Assembly: GCF_000150955.2 (NCBI RefSeq)
Contig: NC_011688.1
Location: 619,012 to 683,011 of the forward strand
From: Phaeodactylum tricornutum CCAP 1055/1
Taxonomy: Eukaryota; Bacillariophyta; Bacillariophyceae; Surirellales; Neidiaceae
Reading direction: 5' to 3'
DNA length: 64,000 bases
Part shown: piece by piece, positions 19,660-32,691 of the stretch
How the letters are laid out: every line of letters begins with the position of its first letter
Numbering within the stretch: position 1 is the stretch's first letter
Program-made: the position numbers and the translations under genes
Notes under the pieces: model-generated
Database searches by the model: none
Seen by the model: only the letters and a program-made list of their open reading frames with translations
What the model was told of the DNA's origin: nothing

Positions 19660-19677
19660 ATTTTTTGAGAATGTTAC

Positions 19678-19883
19678 TATTGAAGAACACAAAACGACGA
19701 TGGAGATCACAGTTAAGGAAAACGATGAACTACGAAGATTATGAGTCTACAATGTACTCTTGGATATTCGTAGGGACTGTGGGGCTGTGATTCGTTGTGT
19801 GTGGGACGGAAGCGACTTGGAGTTTAGCAGTAGGCGATTGAACTTCTGGTAAGACGCTGTCCTTACCAGGAGTTGGATCAACA
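19678..19883 (-). repeat. 3' LTR of element 1
   Basis: 206 bp, identical to the copy at 24749-24954. On the element strand it starts TGTTGATCC and ends TTCAATA, so the ends are TG...TA rather than TG...CA. The pol stop codon (19741-19739) lies inside this LTR. Confidence 0.95.
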
Positions 19884-22800
19884 CACCCTCGCTGCAAATG
19901 AGAAGTTGCTATGTCATTGGTTGATGACTGTTCGAGAAGGTAGTGCGAGCGCATTTTGCGATGATGTGCGGGAGAATGATGCTTGGAGAAATAGTCGGCC
20001 AAATTCGTAAGGCCGGGTCGCCAGTAAATAATAAACTGTTTTTGTTCGACGCGGTCTTTCACCCAGTAGAAACGCATGTCAATGGCTTTAGAACGGCGTT
20101 GTTTGATGGTTTGGTTTGCAATACCGGAGGCACAGGCGTTGTCGGTCTGGATAGGTGTAGGCGGCTGAATGTGGCCAAGCTCGTCGAGAGTGACCCGGAA
20201 AGCGGTGGCGTCCTTGGCGTTGTAAAAGAGGGCACCGAGTTCGGCTTCGGTGGCCGACGAAAGAACAACGGACATGATGGAGCTATGCGTATGAATGGCG
20301 CCATTATTGGGAGGGTCTGGATCAGTCGGAGCGGGAGCAGCATTGGGATCGTTGGGTCGACTGCTGAGGAAAAAATGACCTGCAGCACGAGAACGGGCTT
20401 TCGACTCGGAAAGGTAGGACGCGTCACTATGAATGTGTAAACACATGTCGCTAGCCCGAAACCGTACCGTAGCGTGTGGGTGAGTGGCACAGTAGTCAAG
20501 TAAATGTTCGGCAGCGTGAAGGGTCGCTTGGGTTGCAGTTGACTGTGCCGATGCCAGAGTGCCGAGAGCCACGAGAATGGTCGAGTCGACAGCCCTAGCG
20601 TAGTAAAGTAGGGTTCCGATGATTTCTTGCAGGTGGGTCTTGTCGGACGCATTGAGAGGTTCAGTGGTATCAGGAACTGGAGTGAGTTGGGTGGCAACGC
20701 CATAGGTCGGTGGGGTCCAAGGGTGTGGCGCATGTTGAGGCTTGAGAGGGGGCGATCGTTGGAAGCGGGTTAGGGCTTGGTCGATGTATTCGGGCATGGA
20801 CATGTCGAGGGTTCGATTGTCATAATCCCAAGCGAGTGTGAGACCGAGATAACGAGTGCCGTCCCAGTCAATGGTGATGGTGTAGAGCGCTTGTAGGGTG
20901 TCGATAAGGTGTTGCGCGTGTTCGTTGCCAGTGTACTTAACGCCAAAGTCGTCGACAACTAGGGTAAATTGGATAGGGCGCGTGACGTGGCGAAAAAGGC
21001 CGGCAGTGTGCTTGGTCTTGACGTAGCCGTGCCGAGCAAGGTGTTCAACCAGGCGATCATGAGCGAGAATGCCGGCTTGGGGAAGGCCGTACATACCTTT
21101 GCGAATTTCGACGGTAACGGAATTGTTGTGTATGAGTGGGGTCAACTGGTAATGAGCCAAGATGGTCGGGGGAATATCGGGGACCGGGATGCGCATGTAT
21201 TCGTAGCGAGCCATGGGTGTGCCTAGATAGAAATCCTTGATGTCTATGCACATGAACTTTGCCGCGGGTGTGGAGAGGACACTGTTGAACAGGATCTTGG
21301 CGGTGGTGATGTCCGCGGTGGGAGTGCTAACCTTTCCGGGGTACTGAACTAAGTTGCCACCGACGGTAAACCGGATTCGCTTGGGTTCCGATTTCTGAGG
21401 GCGAATGCTGGCAACAATGCGTAAGTAGGTTGCCTTGCGGCCGGGAGGAATGGCATTATGCGCGATAAAGTGCATGGTTTGGCTGCCGGTGGAACTGTGG
21501 GGCGGGTTACCTTGAGTGAGCCGTCCAATTTCGTTGGCGGCGGCGCGAATCCAATCGGGAGCGTCGGGGCCGGAGCGCAGGTGCCGATATTCCAATGAGG
21601 CGCCGGTGGCGGGGTCGACAACAGCGTTGGCAGAGGCCGGGACAAGAAAGGGCCGGGTGCGGGTGTTGTGTGGATGCGCTGGTACTAGGGTTGGGGTTGC
21701 CGGTTGTGTGCGTGCTTTGCGGCGGCGACGGCCTGGGTTGCCGGTGCGAGAGTGATAGGTGGCTATGGTGGGCACCCTCGGAGGTGCGGCGGCCGGAATG
21801 GGCACCCTCGGAAGTGCAGGGGCATGTTCGGCCGTGACGAGAGGAACGGCAAAGCGGACCTGAGAAGGGGGAGGTGCTGGGGCAGGAGGACGGACCGGAG
21901 GCGTGGGAGCGGATGTAGGGACGGCGGCGGCCGGGGCGGCCACGGTGGCAAAGAGATTGGCAAGTTGGGTGAGTGCCTGATGCTGGGTGGCGTCGAGGGG
22001 GGCGAATGGAGACGCAGGGGAGGGATTCTGGAGGGCATGGATCAGGTCGCGGGCGGCGGCCAGGGCGCGGTCGGTGGACGAAGCGGTGGGCATGGGAATG
22101 CGGGTCGGGAACCAGGAAAGGGTGTCAGCAACGCGTTCGGCACGTGTTTCCGTGACCCAGACTCGGTGGCAGCGGTAATGGTGCAGGGCGGGGCCGAGGT
22201 ACCAACCTTCGACAGCATGGGGGGCCCAAGTTTCGCGGACGGACGGCTTGACATGGACGAGGACGCGAGTACCGGGAGGAGCAAGCGGGGTGCGGTTGTA
22301 ATCGAAAGCACCATGAAGCTGGGCGTGTGCGGACAGCTTGGGATTGATGCGGGAGCGACGAAGAAGATTGAGGGTGATAAGGGCTTGTGGGAGGAGGCGG
22401 TCCCAAAGGTGTAATGGAAAATCCGGGTTAGTGGTGCAGAGGCCAGCAATAAAGTGGTTCTTGAAGGTGCGGATGGCCCGCTCGGCTGCATTACGACGGT
22501 GTAGATGGGGGGGTGCCAGCTGAAAGTCAACGTGTTCTGAGGTCATAAAGGACTGGAGGGCTGCAGAGGCTTCATTGTCCAGACGCTGGAGTTGGGGACG
22601 GAGGCCACGCTGGGTGAAAAGGGTATGAGCGCGTTTGTAGGCGGCCAGTATCTCCGGGCCGGACTTGTTCTTCATGAGTTCGACGTGGATGGCGTTGCTG
22701 TCGTAATCATAAAGCACAAGCATGTCGTTGTGGCCTGCACTGGACGGAGTGAGGAAACGTCCCGGTTGGTCTGTGTAGATTTGGCCGGTAACACGCTGGT

Positions 22801-23614
22801 GCGCAGCGAAGACGTGGTGCGTGCGTGTGACCGGTGGGGCATCGGGAGGATCCCTGTCAGGCTCGTGGTCGACGGGAGGTGTCGTTGTGGTAGGAGGACT
22901 GACCGGGGGAAGCTTGGTGGAGCGAAGGTTAGCTCGTTGTTGGTCGAGGTGACCCTTGATCATGGCAGAGGAGCTGGGTGGATGCTTGCGGATTTGCCGG
23001 GATGAAAGGTCCGGAAAGGTGGCGAGATGGCCCAAGTCAAGTGCCTGGCACCACGTGGAAAGTGCCGGGGAGAAGAGTGAGGCATGGATAAAAGCAATGC
23101 GGTCGGCAAGGGGTGTGTGTGGAACAAGGGCATGGGCCGTCGCGGGAGAGGGAGCTGGGGCAAGATCAAGGTGCCAAAGGCCAGTGTGGGGGGAGCGGGC
23201 CCCAGAGAGCAGCAGGGTAGCGTCGCGATGAATGTCGAGGCGAGTGGCAGAGAAGGTGGCCGTGCAGCCGTCATCGCACAGTTGCCCAATGGAGAGGAGC
23301 GGATGGGAAGCGAGCCCAGGAAAAATGTGGGCTTGGCAGGCGGCAGGGGAGAAACCAGGCAGGGCCAGGGTGGCAATGTGGCTGGAGCGGAGGACGGCGC
23401 CATTTGGGACACGGACGGCGAGGCTGGGGTTTGCTGGGTGCTTGTGGGTGTGAGGGCAGTCGACCGTAATGTAGTGGCCGGTGCAGCCAGTGTCGGCAAT
23501 GGCGGAGGTGTGTGTACTAGGCGGGGAGGGGACTACAGACGAATTAAGACTAGTAATATGATGTAAAGAATCGGTATTACTAGTTTTAATCGTCGGCGTA
23601 GCCGTCCCTCCTTC
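19739..23614 (-). CDS. Copia Pol polyprotein of element 1 (PR-IN-RT-RH)
   Basis: An unbroken frame of 1291 codons starting directly after the gag UAG and in the same frame; there is no ATG at its head (the equivalent codon is ACG), so synthesis should need readthrough. The protease has ADTGCTGHY near residue 40. Integrase core residues are Asp in YDYDSNAIHVELM (~300), Asp in LDNEAS (~343) and Glu in NAAERAIRTFKNHF (~375). Reverse transcriptase has MCIDIKDFYLG, KGMYGLPQAG (~840) and the catalytic VVDDFG (~886) in place of the common YVDDM. RNase H carries HSDASY, SSATEAELG and TDNACA. The C-terminal ~48 codons are read from the 3' LTR. It makes cDNA and integrates it. Confidence 0.93.
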   Translation of the reverse strand, partial: EGGTATPTIKTSNTDSLHHITSLNSSVVPSPPSTHTSAIADTGCTGHYITVDCPHTHKHPANPSLAVRVPNGAVLRSSHIATLALPGFSPAACQAHIFPGLASHPLLSIGQLCDDGCTATFSATRLDIHRDATLLLSGARSPHTGLWHLDLAPAPSPATAHALVPHTPLADRIAFIHASLFSPALSTWCQALDLGHLATFPDLSSRQIRKHPPSSSAMIKGHLDQQRANLRSTKLPPVSPPTTTTPPVDHEPDRDPPDAPPVTRTHHVFAAHQRVTGQIYTDQPGRFLTPSSAGHNDMLVLYDYDSNAIHVELMKNKSGPEILAAYKRAHTLFTQRGLRPQLQRLDNEASAALQSFMTSEHVDFQLAPPHLHRRNAAERAIRTFKNHFIAGLCTTNPDFPLHLWDRLLPQALITLNLLRRSRINPKLSAHAQLHGAFDYNRTPLAPPGTRVLVHVKPSVRETWAPHAVEGWYLGPALHHYRCHRVWVTETRAERVADTLSWFPTRIPMPTASSTDRALAAARDLIHALQNPSPASPFAPLDATQHQALTQLANLFATVAAPAAAVPTSAPTPPVRPPAPAPPPSQVRFAVPLVTAEHAPALPRVPIPAAAPPRVPTIATYHSRTGNPGRRRRKARTQPATPTLVPAHPHNTRTRPFLVPASANAVVDPATGASLEYRHLRSGPDAPDWIRAAANEIGRLTQGNPPHSSTGSQTMHFIAHNAIPPGRKATYLRIVASIRPQKSEPKRIRFTVGGNLVQYPGKVSTPTADITTAKILFNSVLSTPAAKFMCIDIKDFYLGTPMARYEYMRIPVPDIPPTILAHYQLTPLIHNNSVTVEIRKGMYGLPQAGILAHDRLVEHLARHGYVKTKHTAGLFRHVTRPIQFTLVVDDFGVKYTGNEHAQHLIDTLQALYTITIDWDGTRYLGLTLAWDYDNRTLDMSMPEYIDQALTRFQRSPPLKPQHAPHPWTPPTYGVATQLTPVPDTTEPLNASDKTHLQEIIGTLLYYARAVDSTILVALGTLASAQSTATQATLHAAEHLLDYCATHPHATVRFRASDMCLHIHSDASYLSESKARSRAAGHFFLSSRPNDPNAAPAPTDPDPPNNGAIHTHSSIMSVVLSSATEAELGALFYNAKDATAFRVTLDELGHIQPPTPIQTDNACASGIANQTIKQRRSKAIDMRFYWVKDRVEQKQFIIYWRPGLTNLADYFSKHHSPAHHRKMRSHYLLEQSSTNDIATSHLQRGCVDPTPGKDSVLPEVQSPTAKLQVASVPHTTNHSPTVPTNIQEYIVDS
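23544..23589 (-). promoter_or_regulatory. Stem-loop just after the gag UAG, element 1
   Basis: On the element strand the arms TTAAAACTAGTAATA and TATTACTAGTCTTAA pair over 15 positions with one A-C mismatch, enclosing a 16-nt loop. It starts 25 nt after the UAG (23617-23615). The same stem with a different loop occurs in element 2. A role in stop-codon readthrough is inferred. Confidence 0.7.
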
Positions 23615-24673
23615 CTATTCAGGAGGCCTGGGGGCAGTCCAAATCTTGGTTGATCCGCCAAGAGTGTTGGTGGCCGTCGCGTCGTCGCGATGGCCAGGGG
23701 CCTTGTTTTTGCACGTGGCGCTTGTGTGGCGCCGGTTCTTGCTGGTTCCGTGAGTCCAGCAATACGTCATTTCTGGAGAGGAGACGGAAGTCTGGGACAC
23801 AGAGAGCGCGGAGAAAGGAAGGCTAAGGGTGTCGGAAACCGTGGCTGGAGCCAGAGAGGGAGTGGCCGCGAGAAGATTGGCGTAGCCAAGGGATCCAGTG
23901 GTGGCGGTGAGGCGCCGGTCTTCGTCGGCGAGAGTGAAATGCTGATGGAAGTTGGCAAGGGTGTGAGAAACAAGGGGTAATTTGCGCCAGTCTTTGCAGT
24001 CCTGAGGGAAGAGGCCGGAGTGAGCTAGGACGTCGTAGCCGGCACGAACGGCGGCGGCCTCGGAGATGGGGTCGTTGCCGTCGATGGAAAACGCGATAGC
24101 TTCGTCAAGCTGTAAGAAAACAGTCTCGATGGGTTCGGCAGTGTTCCATGGGGTGTACATGGATTGGAAATTTTTCTGGAGGTCGGCAGGCTTAATGGTA
24201 CCATATTTGGTCCAGAGGTGCGAAAGGAGGTCGAGGCAGGTAACGGTGCTGAATTCGAAAATGGGATGTGCAAGGGCGCGTACGTAAATCTTCGGGAGGG
24301 CGTCGAGAAGTTGCTGGCGGAGGGCATTATTGACAGCGACGTACAGGTTGTAGACGTCGGCATTGCGTTGGTGGATGCGGTTGAACTCGGTGATTTGCGG
24401 TTGCGTGGTGCCGACGGGAGGGTTGGCCGGAGGGGCGACGGGAATGTCGAATGGGACGTCGCTGATGTCGGCGTAGGCGCGGGCGGTAAGCGTGAGGGCC
24501 ATGTGGCCGTGGGCGCCACCACCATTGAGCGTAGGGATGGCGGCGGCGTTGGTACTGAGTTGACGTTGGGCCACTTTGAGAGTGGCGTAGGTCGGCGGAA
24601 CGGTGGTGGTGGCGATTGGATCGAGGACTTTGTGAGGGAAGTCGCTCATTGTGAACTGGGCGGAGGTCGACAT
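23615..24673 (-). CDS. Gag of element 1
   Basis: A 352-aa capsid-type protein from the ATG at 24673. The frame is open further upstream into the LTR, but this ATG aligns exactly with the ATG of the 352-aa Gag of element 2. Shared blocks are FTMSDFPHKVLDPIAT at the start, SLNGGGAHGHMALTLT-like sequence, then DLLSHLWTKYGTI, FQSMYTPWNTAEPIETVF and AAAVRAGYDVLAHSGLFP, as in Ty1/copia UBN2/gag domains. Near the C-terminus is a short Cys/His knuckle, CWTHG...HTSATC, which is a shortened form of the usual CX2CX4HX4C knuckle and should bind RNA. It ends PPE followed by UAG, directly in frame with pol. Confidence 0.92.
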   Translation of the reverse strand: MSTSAQFTMSDFPHKVLDPIATTTVPPTYATLKVAQRQLSTNAAAIPTLNGGGAHGHMALTLTARAYADISDVPFDIPVAPPANPPVGTTQPQITEFNRIHQRNADVYNLYVAVNNALRQQLLDALPKIYVRALAHPIFEFSTVTCLDLLSHLWTKYGTIKPADLQKNFQSMYTPWNTAEPIETVFLQLDEAIAFSIDGNDPISEAAAVRAGYDVLAHSGLFPQDCKDWRKLPLVSHTLANFHQHFTLADEDRRLTATTGSLGYANLLAATPSLAPATVSDTLSLPFSALSVSQTSVSSPEMTYCWTHGTSKNRRHTSATCKNKAPGHRDDATATNTLGGSTKIWTAPRPPE

Positions 24674-24737
24674 CAGGACTGAAGAGAAGGCGGATGGGCG
24701 GTAGGGCAGGGGTGGGAGCTGAAAGACGGAGGGGTTG

Positions 24738-24748
24738 CTTCGTAGTTC
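24738..24748 (-). promoter_or_regulatory. Putative self-primer binding site, element 1
   Basis: On the element strand the first 11 nt after the 5' LTR are GAACTACGAAG, an exact reverse complement of CTTCGTAGTTC inside the LTR (24808-24798). There is no TGG start as expected for pairing with a tRNA 3' CCA end. The site is identical in element 2. Confidence 0.6.
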
Positions 24749-24954
24749 TATTGAAGAACACAAAACGACGATGGAGATCACAGTTAAGGAAAACGATGAA
24801 CTACGAAGATTATGAGTCTACAATGTACTCTTGGATATTCGTAGGGACTGTGGGGCTGTGATTCGTTGTGTGTGGGACGGAAGCGACTTGGAGTTTAGCA
24901 GTAGGCGATTGAACTTCTGGTAAGACGCTGTCCTTACCAGGAGTTGGATCAACA
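24749..24954 (-). repeat. 5' LTR of element 1
   Basis: 206 bp, identical to 19678-19883. It should contain the element promoter. It is followed on the plus side by target duplication GTTAC. Confidence 0.95.
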
Positions 24955-25110
24955 GTTACTCAGCATACAATGGCGGTGCTTCCTATACACTAAGCCTATT
25001 GCGTAGTTTCATAGATATCAAAGCGTAGCATCTCTACAGAGGGAATTTGCTGGCAGCAGAAAGTCGGTAAGCTAGATTGAGAATAAGCGCAGACAACGTT
25101 CAATTTCTTC
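24955..25110. repeat. Inner inverted arm, left copy
   Basis: Reverse complement resembles about 27100-27257: shared blocks include CTTATTCTCA, GGCTTACCGAC-like, TCTATGAAAC and CGCCATTGTAT in the same order. I estimate about 70 percent identity. It is the continuation of the outer arm once element 1 is removed. Confidence 0.6.
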
Positions 25111-25289
25111 CTGTCTTTCTGGGGCGTTCACATTTCTTGGCTAGGTCTCCGATTGTTACTCATTTTCGTTACATGGATATGCTGCAGTATTTCTGTGCAT
25201 TGAAGGCACGCAACTCACAGTTATTGCCTGTGGACGCGACAAAATCTCGAAATGCACAGTCAACTGAGAATCGGTCCGTAAATAGCTGT

Positions 25290-25765
25290 TGACATCGTCT
25301 AGGGTGCTAATGTGGGCCTTTGCCAAAGAGTTCGTCGGAAATTTTATGGATGGATGTGATCCAACGTTAGGATTGTCTTGAGTTCTAGCCTGGGCCTTTG
25401 CCAAAGCATTCGTCGGAAAGTTTGATGGTGGATGTGACCCAACGTTGAGGTTGTGTCCGAAATGTTGATGGTGGATGTGAGCTAGCGTTGAGATTATCTT
25501 GGGTACTATTGTGCGACTTTGCCAAAGTGTTCGTCGGAAATTTATGGTTGGATGTGCGCCAACATTAGGATTGTCTTGAGATCTAATGTGCGACTTTACT
25601 AACAGTCAAGCGTTTGTCGGAAATTTTGATGGTTTGATGGTGGACGTGAGCCAACGTTCCGGTTCTGTCGGAAATTTTGACGGTGGATGTGAGCCAATGT
25701 GAAGACTGTCTTCAGTTCTAATGTGCGACTTTGCTAACAGTCGAGCGTTCGTCGGAAATTTTGAT
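25290..25765 (-). repeat. Minisatellite, left arm
   Basis: About six degenerate units of roughly 78 bp, each with ACTTTGCCAAAG, TTCGTCGGAAATTTTGATGG, GGATGTGA and CCAACGTT-type words. They are inverted relative to the right-arm array at 26490-27110. Units here are more diverged and irregular in length than on the right. Confidence 0.75.
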
Positions 25766-26038
25766 CTTCCCATCCCAACCGCGCTGCACAAGAGGAAATT
25801 TGCCTTCCGCCGAAGCAATTTCCAGGGCTTTGGCCAGTGCATCTCTGGTTTCTTTTGAGCATGAGTTGAATTTTTGGGGAAAGAAGAAGCAATCTCCCAT
25901 ACATCTGCAGTCTTTACCCATATAGTCGCAAAGATTGTGTTGTTGTCCATCTGTTGCTGCAAAAGGGATACTAGCAGCTTCCCATTCCATCTGTTCAGAA
26001 ACAGTTTTGTCAAGCAATTGCTTCAGATAGCTGTCCAT
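25718..26038 (-). CDS. Small hypothetical ORF in the centre of the mirror region
   Basis: A 106-codon frame from the ATG at 26038 lying between the two minisatellite arms. It contains a Cys-rich patch (CDYMGKDCRCMGDCFFF) and ends SAEGKFPLVQRGWDGKIKIS before running into the left minisatellite. I do not recognise it. If the mirror region is a mobile element, this could be a remnant of its coding part; it may equally be chance. Confidence 0.25.
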   Translation of the reverse strand: MDSYLKQLLDKTVSEQMEWEAASIPFAATDGQQHNLCDYMGKDCRCMGDCFFFPQKFNSCSKETRDALAKALEIASAEGKFPLVQRGWDGKIKISDERSTVSKVAH

Positions 26039-26489
26039 TTTGGTGATAACGTAAAATGCCAAGCAAATATTGGTAACTGTAAGCAACTTCCCACTTCTGC
26101 AAAGTGGAAATCAGTGTTTTGTGCAATGCGTATAGATAATTGTTAACAGTAAGAAAGCAGACAGGGGAGATTGGGCATGCAGTGATTAGATCTTGTTGAG
26201 TAGGTGTTAAAAGTTAAGGCTACGTGGATTTTCACAGTTCAACAAAATTTTGAAGGACAAACATAAAATGCTATTCAAATTTACAGTAACAACAGTTTCT
26301 AAGTATATACTGTGTCTAGAACACAAGCGCCAGAAATGCATTATTTTCACAACATACATATATCTTTGCTTTACATAAAGAGATGTATCAATAAGCAATT
26401 CCAAGACAAAGCACTCTTCAGCCTTGAGCAGATAAGGTGCAGCCATAGCTCCAGCCGTCAATAGGGCTAATGGGAGTGGACGTTTCCTG

Positions 26490-27110
26490 AGGGAGGACAG
26501 TGTCAACATTGATCGCATCCACCGACAAAGCTTCCGACAAACGGTTTGGAAAAGTCCCTCATAAGGACTCAAGACAATGTCAACGTTTGATCACGTCCAC
26601 CGACAAAACTTTCAACAAGCACTTTGGCAAAGCCCCCTATTAGCACCCAAGATAACGTCAACATTTGTTTGCATCCACCGACAAAGCTTCCGACAAACGG
26701 TTTGGAAAAGTCCCTCATAAGGACTCAAGACAATGTCAACGTATGATCACGTCCACCGACAAAACTTTCAACAATCACTTTGGCAAAGCCCCCCATTAGC
26801 ACTCAAGACAATGTCAACGTATGATCACGTCCACCGACAAAACTTTCAACAATCACTTTGGCAAAGCCCCCCATTAGCACTCAAGACAATGTCAACATTT
26901 GATCACGTCCACCGACAAAACTTTCAACAATCACTTTGGCAAAGCCCCCCATTAGCACTCAAGACAATGTCAACATTTGTTCGCATCCACCGACAAAACC
27001 TCCGACGAACGTTTTGGCAAATCCCACACTAGCACTCACGATAATGTCAATGTTTGAGCATGTCCACCAACAAAAGTTCCAACAAACGCTTCGGTGTGCT
27101 TATTCTCATT
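26490..27110 (+). repeat. 78-bp minisatellite, right arm
   Basis: About eight tandem units with an exact 78-bp period (CAATGTCAAC begins at 26731, 26809, 26887 and 26965, with diverged units either side). Each unit holds TCCACCGACAAAACTTTCAA and ACTTTGGCAAAGCCCC. Because 78 is a multiple of 3, a repeating 26-residue frame appears here; it is a by-product of the array rather than a protein gene. Confidence 0.9.
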
Positions 27111-27257
27111 CCGGCTTACCGACCTTTGTTCCCATATACGCCGTCAAAAGAGACGCTACAATTAGTTGTCTATGAAACTTCGCAACAGGTGTAGTCTATA
27201 CAAAACATCGCCATTGTATAATAACAAGCAAATGAGCTGCTGTACCTGAAATGTTCG
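27100..27257. repeat. Inner inverted arm, right copy
   Basis: Partner of 24955-25110 in inverted orientation; ends at the target site GTTCG of element 2. It holds GTGCTTATTCTCA, GGCTTACCGACC, GTCTATGAAAC and CGCCATTGTAT in the same order as the reverse complement of the left copy. Confidence 0.6.
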
Positions 27258-27462
27258 TGTTGATCCAACTCCTGGTAAGGACAACGTCTATCCAGAAGTT
27301 CAATCGCCTACTGCTAAACGCCAAGTCGCTTCCGTCCCACACACAACGAATCACAGCCCCACAGTCCCTACGAATATCCAAGAGTACAGTATAGACTCAT
27401 AATCTTCGTAGTTCATCGTTTTCCTGACTTCGATCTTCATCGTCGTTTTGTGTTCTTCAATA
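27258..27462 (+). repeat. 5' LTR of element 2
   Basis: 205 bp, TGTTGATCC...TTCAATA. It differs from the 3' LTR at two places (GTCTATCC against GTCTAACC, and GACTCATAAT against GACTCGTAAT). It differs more from the LTRs of element 1, mainly in the last third. Confidence 0.95.
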
Positions 27463-27473
27463 GAACTACGAAG
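27463..27473 (+). promoter_or_regulatory. Putative self-primer binding site, element 2
   Basis: GAACTACGAAG directly follows the LTR and is the exact reverse complement of LTR positions 27404-27414 (CTTCGTAGTTC). The pairing ends on both sides after 11 bp. It is the same in element 1. Confidence 0.6.
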
Positions 27474-27537
27474 CAACCCCCCCGTCTTTCTGATCCCAGC
27501 CCTGCCCTACCGCTCCCCTGTCCTGCCTTCTGCCATC

Positions 27538-28596
27538 ATGTCCCCGACCGCCGACTTCACCATTTCCGACTTTCCTCACAAAGTCCTCGATCCCATCGCC
27601 ACCGACACCACCGCTCCCTCGTATGCGTCGCTTCTCCTGGCCCAACGCCAGCTCTCCGCCAACGCGTCCGCCATTCCCAGCCTTAACGGCGGCGGGGCCC
27701 ATGGTCACATGGCCCTCACGCTCACTGCCGAAGCGTACGCCGAACTCTCCGACATCCCTTTTGTCATCCCCGTTGCTCCCCCTGCCGACCCTGAACCCGG
27801 CACCACGCAACCTCAAATAACGGAGAACAACCGACTCCACAAACGCGCTGTGGCCATCCACAGCCTCTACGTGGCGGTCAACAACGCCCTTCGTCGCCAG
27901 ATCCTCGACGCTGTTCCTCGTGTCTACGTTCGCGACCTGGAACACCCCCAGTTTGCTTACAGCCACGTTTCCTGTCGCGACCTCCTCGACCATCTCTGGC
28001 GCAACTTTGGTACCATCTCCGCTTCGGACCTTAAGAACAACATTCAGTCCATGTACACCCCGTGGAACCCAGCTGACCCCATCGAGACCATTTTTCATCG
28101 CTTAACCGACGCCATCGCGTACTCGACGGCGGGACGTGACCCCATCACCGAGGCTGCCGCCGTTCGCGCCGGCTACGATGTTCTCGAGCACTCCGGCCTT
28201 TTTCCTCGTGCCTGTGAAACCTGGCGCACTGCCTTGCCGGCCACCCATACGCTTGCCAATCTGCGCGCCGTCTTTAAGGTCGCCGACACTGACCGCAAGC
28301 GTACGGTTACCACCGGCTCCCTAGGCTACGCCAACGTCCTTGCCACAGCTCCATTGGTTCTCCCGTCGCTTGCGCCCGACTCGCTCAGCCTTCCTTTTTC
28401 AGCCCTCTTGGTGTCACACTCCTCTGCTGCCCTCTCTGAGCGAACTTATTGCTGGACCCATGGGTCCAGCAATAACCGTCGGCACACTAGTGCCACGTGC
28501 AAAAACAAGGCCCCTGGCCACCGCGACGACGCGACGGCCACCAACACCCTTGGCGGCTCCACCAAGGTTTGGACTGCCCCCAAGCCTCCTGAATAG
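27538..28596 (+). CDS. Gag of element 2
   Basis: 352 aa from the ATG at 27538, the same length as Gag of element 1 and colinear with it: FTISDFPHKVLDPIATDTTA, ASAIPSLNGGGAHGHMALTL, DLLDHLWRNFGTI, IQSMYTPWNPADPIETIF, AAAVRAGYDVLEHSGLFP, and the C-terminal CWTHG...HTSATC knuckle. It ends PPE then UAG (28594-28596), in frame with the pol remnant. The frame has stayed open even though pol is broken, so Gag alone could still be made and might package other family members; that is inference. Confidence 0.9.
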   Translation: MSPTADFTISDFPHKVLDPIATDTTAPSYASLLLAQRQLSANASAIPSLNGGGAHGHMALTLTAEAYAELSDIPFVIPVAPPADPEPGTTQPQITENNRLHKRAVAIHSLYVAVNNALRRQILDAVPRVYVRDLEHPQFAYSHVSCRDLLDHLWRNFGTISASDLKNNIQSMYTPWNPADPIETIFHRLTDAIAYSTAGRDPITEAAAVRAGYDVLEHSGLFPRACETWRTALPATHTLANLRAVFKVADTDRKRTVTTGSLGYANVLATAPLVLPSLAPDSLSLPFSALLVSHSSAALSERTYCWTHGSSNNRRHTSATCKNKAPGHRDDATATNTLGGSTKVWTAPKPPE

Positions 28597-31500
28597 GAAA
28601 GAGGGACGGCTACGCCAATGATTAAAACTAGTAATACCGATTCTCTCAATCATATTACTAGTCTTAACTCGTCTGTAGTCCCCTCCCCGCCTAGTACCCA
28701 CACCTCTGCCATTGCCGACACCGGCTGCACAGGCCACTACATTACGATCAACTGCCCTCACACGCACCGGCACCCAGCCAACCCCAGCCTCTCCGTCCGT
28801 GTCCCGAATGGCTCTGTCCTCCGCTCCAGCCATGTTGCCACCCTGGACCTCCCTGGTTTCTCCCCTGCCGCCTGCCAAGCCCACATTTTTCCTGGGCTCG
28901 CTTCCCATCCGCTCCTCTCCATCGGTCAACTGTGCGATGACGGCTGTACGGCAACCTTCTCGGCCACTCGCCTTGACATTCATCGCGACGCCACCCTGCT
29001 GCTCTCTGGTGCCCGCTCCCCCCACACTGGCCTCTGGCACCTTGATCTTACCCCTCCCAAGCCCCCTGCTACAGCCCATGCTCTTGTTCCAACCACCCCC
29101 CTCGCCGACCGCATTGCTTTTGTTCACGCCTCGCTCTTCTCCCCGGCTCTCTCTACCTGGTGCCAGGCCCTCGACTCCGGCCATCTCGCGACTTTTCCAG
29201 ACCTTTCCTCCCGCCAGGTCCGCAAGTACCCACCCAGCTCCCCCGCGATGATCAAAGGTCACCTCAACCAACAACGCGCAAACCTGCGCTCCACCAAGCT
29301 TTCCCCTGTCTGTTCCCCTCTCTCGACGGAACCCCCTGCCGTCGCTGTGCCCGACCTCGATCCTCCTGACGCCCACCCTGTTGCACGCACACACCACGTC
29401 TTCGTTGCCCACCAACGGGTCACCGGGCAGATCTACACCAACCAACCGGGCCGTTTCTTCACTCCCTCCAGTGCCGGACACAACGACATGCTTGTCCTTT
29501 ACGATTACGATAGCAACGCCATCCATGTTGAACTCATGCGGAACAAGTCAGGACCCGAGATTCTTGCCGCCTACCAACGTGCTCACACCCTTTTTACCCA
29601 GCGCGGCCTGCGTCCCCAACTTCAGCGCCTCGACAACGAAGCCTCTATAGCCCTCCAAGCCTTCATGACCTTAGAGCAGGTCGACTTTCAGCTCGCACCC
29701 CCCCCCCCCCCCATCTGCACCGTCGTAATGCCGCCGAACGGGCCATACGCACCTTCAAGAACCACTTCATTGCTGGCCTCTGTACCACAAACCCGGATTT
29801 TCCCCTTCATCTTTGGGACCGACTCCTCCCACAGGCCCTCATTACCCTCAATCTTCTTCGTCGCTCCCGCATCAATCCCAAGTTGTCCGCCCACGCACAA
29901 CCTTACGGTGCCTTTGACTACAACCGCACCCCGCTTGCTCCTCCCGGCACCCGCGTCTTAGTCCATGTCAAGCCCGCTGTTCGCGAAACCTGGGCCCCCC
30001 ATGCTGTCGAAGGTTGGTATCTCGGCCCCGCTCTCAACCATTATCGCTGCCATCGCGTATGGATCACGGAAACACGTGCCAAACGTGTTGCTGACACCCT
30101 TTCCTGGTTCCCGACCCGCATTCCCATGCCCGCCCTTTGTCCACCGACCGCGCCCTGGCCGCCGCCCGTGACCTGGTCCATGCCCTCCAGAATCCTTCCC
30201 CGGCGTCTCCGTTCGCCCCCCTCGATGCCACCCAGCACCAGGCACTCACAGATCTTGCCACCCTCTTTGCCACTGTGGCCGCCCCAGCCGACGACATCCC
30301 TGCACCCGCTCCCGTGCCTCCGGTCCGTCCCCCTGCCCCAGCAACTCCCCTTGCTCAGGTCCGTTTTGCCGTTCCTCTTGTCACGGCCGAACATGCCCCG
30401 GCACTTCCGAGGGTGCCCATTCCGGCCCCAGCACTTCCGAGGGTGCCCACCCTGGCCACCTATCACTCTCGCACCGGCAACCCAGGCCGTCGCCGCCGCA
30501 AAGCACGCACACAACCGGCAACCCCAACCCTAGTACCGGCGCATCCACACAACACCCGCACCCGGCCCTTTCTTGTCCCGGCCTCCGCCAATGCTGTTGT
30601 CGACCCCGCCACCGGCGCCTCATTGGAATATCGCCACCTGCGCTCCGGCCCCGACGCTCCCGATTGGATTCGCGCCGCCGCTAACGAAATTGGCCGGCTC
30701 ACCCAAGGTAACCCACCCCATAGCACCACTGGCAGCCAAACCATGCACTTCATCGAGCATAACGCCATTCCTCCCGGTCGCAAGGCCACCTACTTACGCA
30801 TCGTAGCCAGCATTCGCCCTCAAAAATCTGAACCCAAGCGCATCCGCTTCACCGTTGGTGGCAACTAAGTTCAGTACCCCGGAAAGGTTAGCACCCCAAC
30901 TGCTGACATCACCACCGCCAAGATCCTCTTCAATAGCGTCCTCTCCACGCCCGCCGCCAAGTTTATGTGCATTGACATCAAGGATTTCTATCTTGGCACC
31001 CCCATGGCTCGGTACGAATACATGCGCATCCCGGTTCCCAATATCCCTCCCACCATCTTGGCTCATTACCGGTTAGCTCCACTCATTCGCAACAACTCTG
31101 TTACCGTCGAAATTCGCAAAGGTATGTACGGCCTTCCCCAAGCCGGTATCCTCGCCCACAATCGTCTTGTTGAACACCTTGCTGCGCACGGCTATGTTAA
31201 GACGAAACATACCGCTGGCCTATTTCGCCACGTCACGCGCCCTATTCAGTTTACCCTAGTTGTGGACGACTTTGGTGTCAAATACACTGGAACCGAACAC
31301 GCACAACACCTTATCGACACTCTCCAAGCGCTTTACACCATCACCATTGACTGGGACGGCACTCGTTATCTCGGACTTACACTTACTTGGGATTATGAGT
31401 GTCAAACCCTCGACATGTCCATGCCCGACTACATCGACCAAGCCCTAACCCGCTTTCAACGCTCGCCCCCTGTTACGCCTCAACATGCGCCTCACCCTTG

Positions 31501-32368
31501 GACCCCTCCAACTTATGGCGTTGCAACTCAACTCACACCAGTCCCTGATACCACTGAACCTCTCAATGCATCCGACAAGACCCACCTGCAAGAAATCATC
31601 GGAACCCTACTTTACTACGCTAGGGCTGTCGACTCGACCATTCTCGTGGCTCTCGGCACTCTGGCCTCGGCACAGTCAACTGCAACCCAAGCGACCCTTC
31701 ACGCTGCCAAACATTTACTCGACTACTGTGCCACTCACCCACATGCTACGGTACGGTTTCAGGCTAGCGACATGTGTTTACACATTCATAGTGACGCGTC
31801 ATACCTTTCCGAGTCGAAAGCCCGTTCTCGTGCTGCCGGTCATTTTTTCCTCAGCAGTCGACCCCACGATCCCAATGCTGCTCCCGCTCCAACTGATCCG
31901 GACCCTCCCAATAATGGCGCCATTCATACACATAGCTCCATCATGTCCGTTGTTCTTTCGTCGGCCACCGAAGCAGAACTCGGTGCCCTCTTTTACAACG
32001 CCAAAGACGCCACTGCTTTCCGGGTCACTCTTGACGAGCTTGGCCATCTTCAGCCACCTACCCCTATCCAGACCGATAACGCTTGTGCCTCCGGTATTGC
32101 CAATGAAACCATCAAGCAACGCCGTTCTAAAGCCATTGACATGCGTTTCTACTGGGTTAAAGACCGCGTCAAGCAAAAACAGTTTATTATTTGCTGGCGA
32201 CCCGGCCTCACGAATTTGGCCGACTATTTCTCCAAGCATCATTCTCCCGCACATCATCGCAAAATGCGCTCGCACTACCTTCTCGAACAGTCACCCACCA
32301 ATGACAAAGCAACTTCTCATTTGCAGCGAGGGTGTGTTGATCCAACTCCTGGTAAGGACAACGTCTAA
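28597..32368 (+). pseudogene. Broken Pol of element 2
   Basis: Colinear with pol of element 1 but with four lesions. A C-run of 15 at 29698-29712, where element 1 has 7, shifts the frame by +8 inside the integrase, just before the catalytic Glu. A 1-nt loss near 30130-30137 shifts it again. TTA has become TAA at 30866-30868, and a TAA in the 3' LTR (32366-32368) removes the last ~34 residues. Intact segments remain readable: protease ADTGCTGHY, integrase to LDNEAS, reverse transcriptase KGMYGLPQAG and VVDDFG, and RNase H HSDASY and TDNACA. No functional Pol is expected from this copy. Confidence 0.92.
28622..28667 (+). promoter_or_regulatory. Stem-loop just after the gag UAG, element 2
   Basis: Arms 28622-28636 (TTAAAACTAGTAATA) and 28653-28667 (TATTACTAGTCTTAA) with a 16-nt loop. 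It starts 25 nt after the UAG, as in element 1. The arms are identical in both elements; the loop differs at several positions. Confidence 0.7.
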
Positions 32369-32539
32369 CCAGAAGTTCAATCGCCTACTGCTAAACGCCA
32401 AGTCGCTTCCGTCCCACACACAACGAATCACAGCCCCACAGTCCCTACGAATATCCAAGAGTACAGTATAGACTCGTAATCTTCGTAGTTCATCGTTTTC
32501 CTGACTTCGATCTTCATCGTCGTTTTGTGTTCTTCAATA
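32335..32539 (+). repeat. 3' LTR of element 2
   Basis: 205 bp. The end of the pol remnant overlaps its first 34 nt. It is followed by target duplication GTTCG. Confidence 0.95.
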
Positions 32540-32691
32540 GTTCGATCTCAGTTGATTGTGGACGTGGATGGCGTGCTTGCGTTGTTCGTTTGAATCGCAA
32601 ACGGCCGGATCGAAAGCATTTCTGAGTATGACGTGGATGAGTCGTGTAAGGAGTTTTCATTCCTTAGTTTCAGGTCCATACGGCCATCCCC
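32540..32691 (+). repeat. Outer inverted arm, right copy
   Basis: 152 bp, about 96 percent identical to the reverse complement of 19508-19659. Similarity ends at GGCCATCCCC. Its first 5 bp are also the target duplication of element 2. Confidence 0.85.

Follow-up and report, generated by a model that had tools for sequence, protein, structure and literature searches.

The 64-kb window, by which we mean the whole stretch of Phaeodactylum tricornutum DNA analyzed here, carries two LTR retrotransposons of one family on opposite strands. Element 1, a Ty1/Copia element, runs from 24954 to 19678 on the minus strand, to which all its coordinates refer, and is bounded by two LTRs of 206 nt without any difference between them, the 5' LTR at 24749–24954 (TGTTGATCC...TTCAATA) and the 3' LTR at 19678–19883, themselves flanked by the target-site duplication GTAAC (24955–24959 on the 5' side, 19673–19677 on the 3' side). 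Adjoining the 5' LTR lies the predicted primer-binding site (PBS), GAACTACGAAG (24738–24748), and inside this LTR lies a predicted self-primer site, CTTCGTAGTTC (24798–24808), the candidate start of R, from which a proposed R–U5 leader of 60 nt (24749–24808) extends to the LTR end. The self-primer site has its copy in the 3' LTR (19727–19737), which is abutted by a purine-rich stretch, AGCGAGGGTG (19884–19893), picked by eye as the candidate polypurine tract. The coding region comprises a gag-like reading frame (23615–24781, listed with a GTG start) and a pol frame of 1291 aa measured from stop to stop (19739–23614). This pol frame continues through U3 of the 3' LTR, so that U3 is also coding, and its stop codon TAA (19741–19739) stands one base ahead of the primer-site copy that begins at 19737.

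Element 2, the other family 1 member of the window, occupies 27258–32539 on the plus strand, with its 5' LTR at 27258–27462 and its 3' LTR at 32335–32539 (2 differences in 206 compared positions), and is flanked by the target duplication GTTCG (27253–27257 and 32540–32544, by eye). Both of its predicted sites are as in element 1, with the self-primer site at 27404–27414, the PBS at 27463–27473, and the copy of the primer site in the 3' LTR at 32481–32491. Elements 1 and 2 face each other head to head across 2.3 kb (24955–27256), and the interval between them holds a 78-nt tandem array of 7.7 copies (26496–27091), units of which recur inverted within 25280–25737, as well as a pair of inverted flanks (24965–25035 and 27149–27219).

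The assignment to Ty1/Copia is supported by the paired LTRs and 5-bp target duplications, and by an integrase-side domain that precedes an RVT_2-type reverse transcriptase (RT) in the pol of element 1, in weak but ordered matches: SH3_retrovirus at residues 253–298 (E 0.026) and, downstream, RVT_2 at residues 641–758 (E 0.0044), both below the Pfam cut-off. The same order, drawn from the same weak matches, places element 1 outside the Tf1/sushi clade. At the default threshold, Pfam returned no match for either gag or pol of element 1, and the gag frame gave a weak Ty5-Gag match (E 0.19). By eye, the pol frame contains the motif ADTG, an integrase region, an RT with VVDDFG, and the acidic motifs HSDASY, TEAEL, and QTDNA; going by the consensus motifs, we take ADTG to be protease-like, VVDDFG to belong to the RT, and the acidic motifs to belong to RNase H. 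Judged from the weak matches, this pol is divergent. A protein search nevertheless placed 2166 relatives at E ≤ 0.001 among 7994 scored proteins, with PF07727 common among the best 120 of these 2166, and one relative from Fragilaria crotonensis among the matches listed. No relatives were found on viral contigs, with the pol protein and a 40-sequence alignment as queries, and none of the lineage on genome contigs with the alignment as query.

The initial annotation had drawn attention to the junction between the 5' LTR and the interior of element 1, and its description of the letters stood in every respect. The PBS (24748–24738) is the exact reverse complement of LTR bases 24808–24798, the complementary LTR stretch begins 60 nt ahead of the LTR end, the pairing ends after 11 bp, and the PBS lacks the TGG that would pair with the 3' end of a tRNA. 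The 11-mer of the site occurs six times in the 64-kb window versus 0.03 expected, always within the two Copia elements. Since the target duplications of both elements of the window start with G, the position of the LTR end is ambiguous by one base from the window alone; however, two duplications of a sister family treated below (AGTGG and ATGAG, flanks by eye) begin with A, from which it follows that the LTR ends in AATA and that the G belongs to the PBS. The zero spacing between LTR and PBS is firm, and the junction has the layout of self-primed elements of the Tf1 type, that is, a PBS placed directly after the 5' LTR and complementary to a stretch of that LTR.

This layout is kept in the other copies of the family. 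Searching the P. tricornutum genome (27.45 Mb, 88 contigs) with the LTR and leader as query, we retained the best 40 of 88 candidates, which resolved into 30 loci, 23 of them with a 5' junction. Among these 23 junctions, all 11 bases pair in 20, and in 22 when G-U pairs are counted, two copies (L016 and L020) keeping all their pairs through G-U; the last one, L023, loses two pairs, each at a CpG position. The 11 nt of the PBS are unchanged in 22 of the 23, with a single change in L023, and the primer site always starts 60 or 59 nt ahead of the LTR end.

The pol protein further led to a second family in the same genome, family 2, with a pol identity of about 59–63% to family 1. Its LTR reads TGTTGATATG...CATCAATA, the TGTTAATAA subtype having the target duplication GTATG, and is directly followed by a changed PBS, GAACTAATAAG, while CTTATTAGTTC is found at the place of the LTR that matches the self-primer site of element 1. 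Relative to element 1, two neighboring pairs are thus changed on both arms, from C-G to A-U and from G-C to U-A. The two arms pair over 12–14 bp in 11 of the 13 family 2 copies, the two others, L123 and L124, having two and three mismatches within the first 11 positions and looking worn; the primer-site start lies 58 nt from the LTR end in 12 of the 13 copies and 64 nt in L124. Where element 1 has its candidate polypurine tract, family 2 has ACGAGGG. The compensatory changes in the two stretches that the initial annotation had proposed to look for are therefore present between the families, as these two base pairs, but not inside family 1; none was seen within either family, where L023, L123, and L124 simply break pairs.

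Could the complementarity have arisen by chance and, having no function, have merely been kept by descent? The copies within one family are related, and identity within a family is for this reason not independent evidence. However, an anchored match of at least 11 nt was reached by just 56 of 200,000 LTRs simulated under a first-order Markov model (0.00028), and the pairing is kept with different letters in the two families. As controls we also chose ten other Copia elements of the genome from 150 RVT_2 matches, by score and open frame, of which one (B) gave no LTR pair and was omitted; among the control stretches, only G and I are alike (66–75% identity). In the nine that remain, the longest anchored self-match is 6 nt, the test being partial in five of them (the 5' LTR is cut in E, G, I, and K, of which K retains just 85 nt, and the LTR match of J, at 170 nt, looks incomplete). 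We accordingly regard a chance origin as very improbable.

The coordinated change was then quantified on an alignment of 19 distinct rows (A3, which replaced a 20-row version, A2), from which L124 was omitted because of its insertion and degraded site. In this alignment, 98.1% of the cells of the 11-bp helix pair, versus only 22–48% when the partner is slid by 1–3 columns. Two pairs and 11 cells are changed on both sides, a cell count that none of 500 shuffles reached, while the count of doubly changed pairs does not exceed that of shuffles (412/500). As the rows fall into two families, this covariation amounts to one divergence rather than to many: as far as the alignment tells, it consists of two adjacent base pairs that differ between two families, and it possibly reflects one evolutionary episode. 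RNAalifold recovers the 11-bp helix unprompted from the A3 rows, together with a short inner stem in U5 that sits in a loosely aligned part and on which we do not rely.

Predicted folds of single leaders bring in another reading of the junction, in which the PBS region would not receive a primer made of the element's own RNA but would form an RNA structure, in which it pairs with either the U5 end or the LTR site and which serves packaging, dimerization, or the presentation of another primer. Indeed, the minimum-energy fold of the element 1 leader is a local U5–PBS hairpin (−17.0 kcal/mol), ahead of the self-primer duplex (−15.0), and in the alignment this hairpin likewise shows double-sided change, at two pairs and in 12 cells, with 0 of 500 shuffles as high. 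A structural replacement of the PBS has moreover a precedent, insofar as fungal GalEa Copia elements have a hairpin, the Conserved Hairpin Site, in its place, with no complementary repeat in U5, according to PMC5445492. GalEa elements resemble element 1 in being Copia elements with no tRNA-type PBS and with a feature of RNA structure at the LTR junction, but differ from it, by the same account, in the absence of the U5 repeat complementary to the site, which element 1 has; by eye, the junction of element 1 shows neither a palindromic 9-mer nor an inverted copy 12–41 bp downstream, as a GalEa-type site would. When examined as the conserved element in its own right, the local hairpin proved to be conserved less faithfully than the long helix, in spite of its covariation, and we set it aside: family 2 preserves it badly, the overall share of paired cells is 84.3% versus 98.1% for the long-range helix, and 6 of the 14 hairpin pairs depart only through broken cells. 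The long-range duplex, for its part, comes out as the most stable predicted fold for 13 of 20 distinct sequences (8/13 in family 1 and 5/7 in family 2), or, counted by copies, in 10 of 23 family 1 and 11 of 13 family 2 elements, and it is the best fold of two family 2 leaders (−19.2, z −4.7 and −4.1). Furthermore, the helix terminates exactly on the base that follows the LTR, which is where the 3' end of a primer must sit. A purely structural role is consequently unlikely in our view.

The remaining alternative is that priming relies on a tRNA or a tRNA fragment, either one outside our sample of tRNAs or one that pairs imperfectly. An Rfam search of the genome gave 51 tRNA places (from the best 63 of 882 candidates scored), 41 of which entered the comparison, 40 at once and the initiator tRNA-Met later. 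Over the 40 places, the longest exact run between the PBS of element 1 and a tRNA is 7 nt, with 73 of 200 shuffles as good, and that of the family 2 PBS is 6 nt (124/200 and 139/200); with the initiator tRNA-Met added, 75 of 200 shuffles do as well for element 1 and 130 of 200 for family 2. When wobble and mismatch are allowed, element 1 pairs at 10 of 11 positions (nine Watson–Crick pairs and one G-U) with nt 3–13 of a tRNA-Ile (L050), a score equaled or bettered by 18 of 300 shuffles. This is the closest approach of element 1 to a tRNA in the comparison, but the match involves a mismatch and a wobble and is gone in family 2, whose best score is 9 of 11 with a different tRNA (153 of 300 shuffles as good). 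The first scan tolerant of G-U had separated known tRNA matches poorly from shuffles and was repeated for families 1 and 2 only. Besides, the exact 11-mer occurs at 108 places in the genome, and the 100 of these that were compared by eye with the 51 tRNA places all lie outside of them.

The other Copia elements of the genome provide a yardstick for these comparisons, and their habits also lend the tRNA reading some plausibility, since seven of the nine controls match internal parts of tRNAs, over 11–15 nt (controls within L064–L083; initiator tRNA-Met at L138). Element A matches the half of the initiator tRNA-Met up to the anticodon stem (15 nt, 0/200 shuffles), and C matches the D arm of the same tRNA (14 nt, 0/200); E and H match a half tRNA-Asn over 11 and 14 nt, E reaching 14 nt once its PBS start was reset; and G, J, and K match a half tRNA-Ile over 14, 14, and 11 nt, if position 34 is inosine, as we assumed. 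For D and I no match was seen in the tRNAs compared, the PBS starts of E and I having been set by eye after the first comparison and then retested, with the same outcome for I. Given these seven matches, the exact-run test can detect tRNA primers in this genome, and it detected none for families 1 and 2, so that the comparison with tRNAs proposed in the initial annotation came out in favor of its reading, over 41 of the 51 tRNA places. The controls that match half tRNA-Met or, if base 34 is inosine, half tRNA-Ile recall the plant Copia elements Osser, Bryco, and Bianca, described as primed by half tRNAs, a group to which element 1 and family 2 do not belong, as neither has such a match among the tRNA places compared. 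A tRNA primer would also leave the coordinated changes of the LTR unexplained, and we hold it to be distinctly unlikely. Overall, at least four primer solutions appear, from sequence comparison, to coexist among Copia relatives in one 27-Mb genome, namely the element's own RNA tip, pieces of initiator tRNA-Met, half tRNA-Asn, and half tRNA-Ile read through inosine, which makes this host a good system for questions of primer switching.

From the two arms, with their positions, length, conservation, and coordinated change, we infer the steps that follow, and, in support of the reading of the initial annotation, we consider it likely that element 1 is a self-primed Ty1/Copia element working in the manner of Tf1. 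Transcription would start at 24808 or within a few bases of it, in which case the RNA would begin with CUUCGUAGUUC, and the RNA of family 2 would be expected to start at TTCTTATTAGTTC or TCTTATTAGTTC. The 5' tip of the RNA would then fold back and pair with the 11 nt right behind the 5' LTR, RNase H would cut the RNA past the paired stretch, and the 3' end so created would prime the synthesis of minus-strand strong-stop DNA across U5 and R. This reading has the merit of placing the family's promoter start with almost single-base precision. In Tf1 of Schizosaccharomyces pombe, according to PMC7175516, priming dispenses with a tRNA: the RNA pairs with the PBS through its first 11 bases, and the RNase H cut falls between bases 11 and 12. 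Element 1 agrees with it in the predicted pairing of a 5' tip with the PBS, and in doing so over 11 bp. A U5 stem in the RNA is also mentioned in the title of a work cited there, and the short stem of RNAalifold, in its loosely aligned part, occupies a like place here. The two nonetheless differ in that Tf1 belongs to Ty3/gypsy and element 1, with its integrase region before the RT, to Ty1/Copia, and in that priming has been studied experimentally in Tf1 and is deduced for element 1. One may go further and suppose that this Copia lineage, whose relatives among predicted proteins exceed 2000, gave up tRNA primers independently of Tf1 and copies its primer into a new PBS at each cycle, in which case the PBS would record where each transcript began, but we find this extension rather doubtful.

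Within Copia itself, self-priming has been predicted for the plant lineage TAR, including Houba and Osr-1, where it was called from an LTR complementarity of at least 10 bp beginning 0–5 bp past the LTR (PMC6317226). TAR and element 1 have in common their superfamily and a predicted self-priming, TAR being a plant lineage, and the passages on it in PMC6317226 present no covariation test of the prediction. Many Skipper elements of dictyostelids, which belong to Ty3/gypsy, have lost the PBS and have no complementary LTR stretch (PMC5006619). As regards diatoms, the CoDi Copia elements (Maumus 2009, PMC2806351) come from the same host species and superfamily as the elements described here, which are probably among those counted there; searched by whole words, the main text of that article has no "tRNA," uses "PBS" for a buffer only, and uses "primer" for PCR only. 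Its abstract reports that LTR-retrotransposon transcription rises under nitrate limitation, and one genomic PCR primer that it gives for the Blackbeard locus of P. tricornutum matches the genome studied here exactly once, by which we assign the host to this species. Likewise, among the matches listed in a search of the open-licence literature, at the level of titles and abstract openings, we found no report of self-priming in a diatom Copia element. Within the scope of that search, the initial remark on novelty stands as far as diatoms are concerned, and it has to be tempered for Copia in general, in light of the prediction for TAR (PMC6317226). Self-priming being already known from Tf1 and predicted in plant Copia elements, diatoms would, if our reading is true, join its hosts, and a Copia lineage outside the Ty3/gypsy group of Tf1 would share this mode of priming, with the backing of a coordinated sequence change.

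Two further junctions deserve mention. In control element D (L070, G000:C10:643395-645395, minus strand), a 14-nt palindrome, CGTTTGATCAAACG, is seen by eye at the PBS position, its first C being the last aligned base of the LTR, with a near-inverted copy, TTGGTCAAAC, downstream; the pair resembles the Conserved Hairpin Site of fungal GalEa Copia elements. In the family 2 copy L120 (G000:C4:924166-924441), the PBS matches its own LTR over 14 nt, when seven others match over 12, and the longer match arises from two adjacent PBS differences at positions 13–14, the LTR letters being the same; in this single copy, the PBS looks as if a slightly longer self primer had been copied into it.
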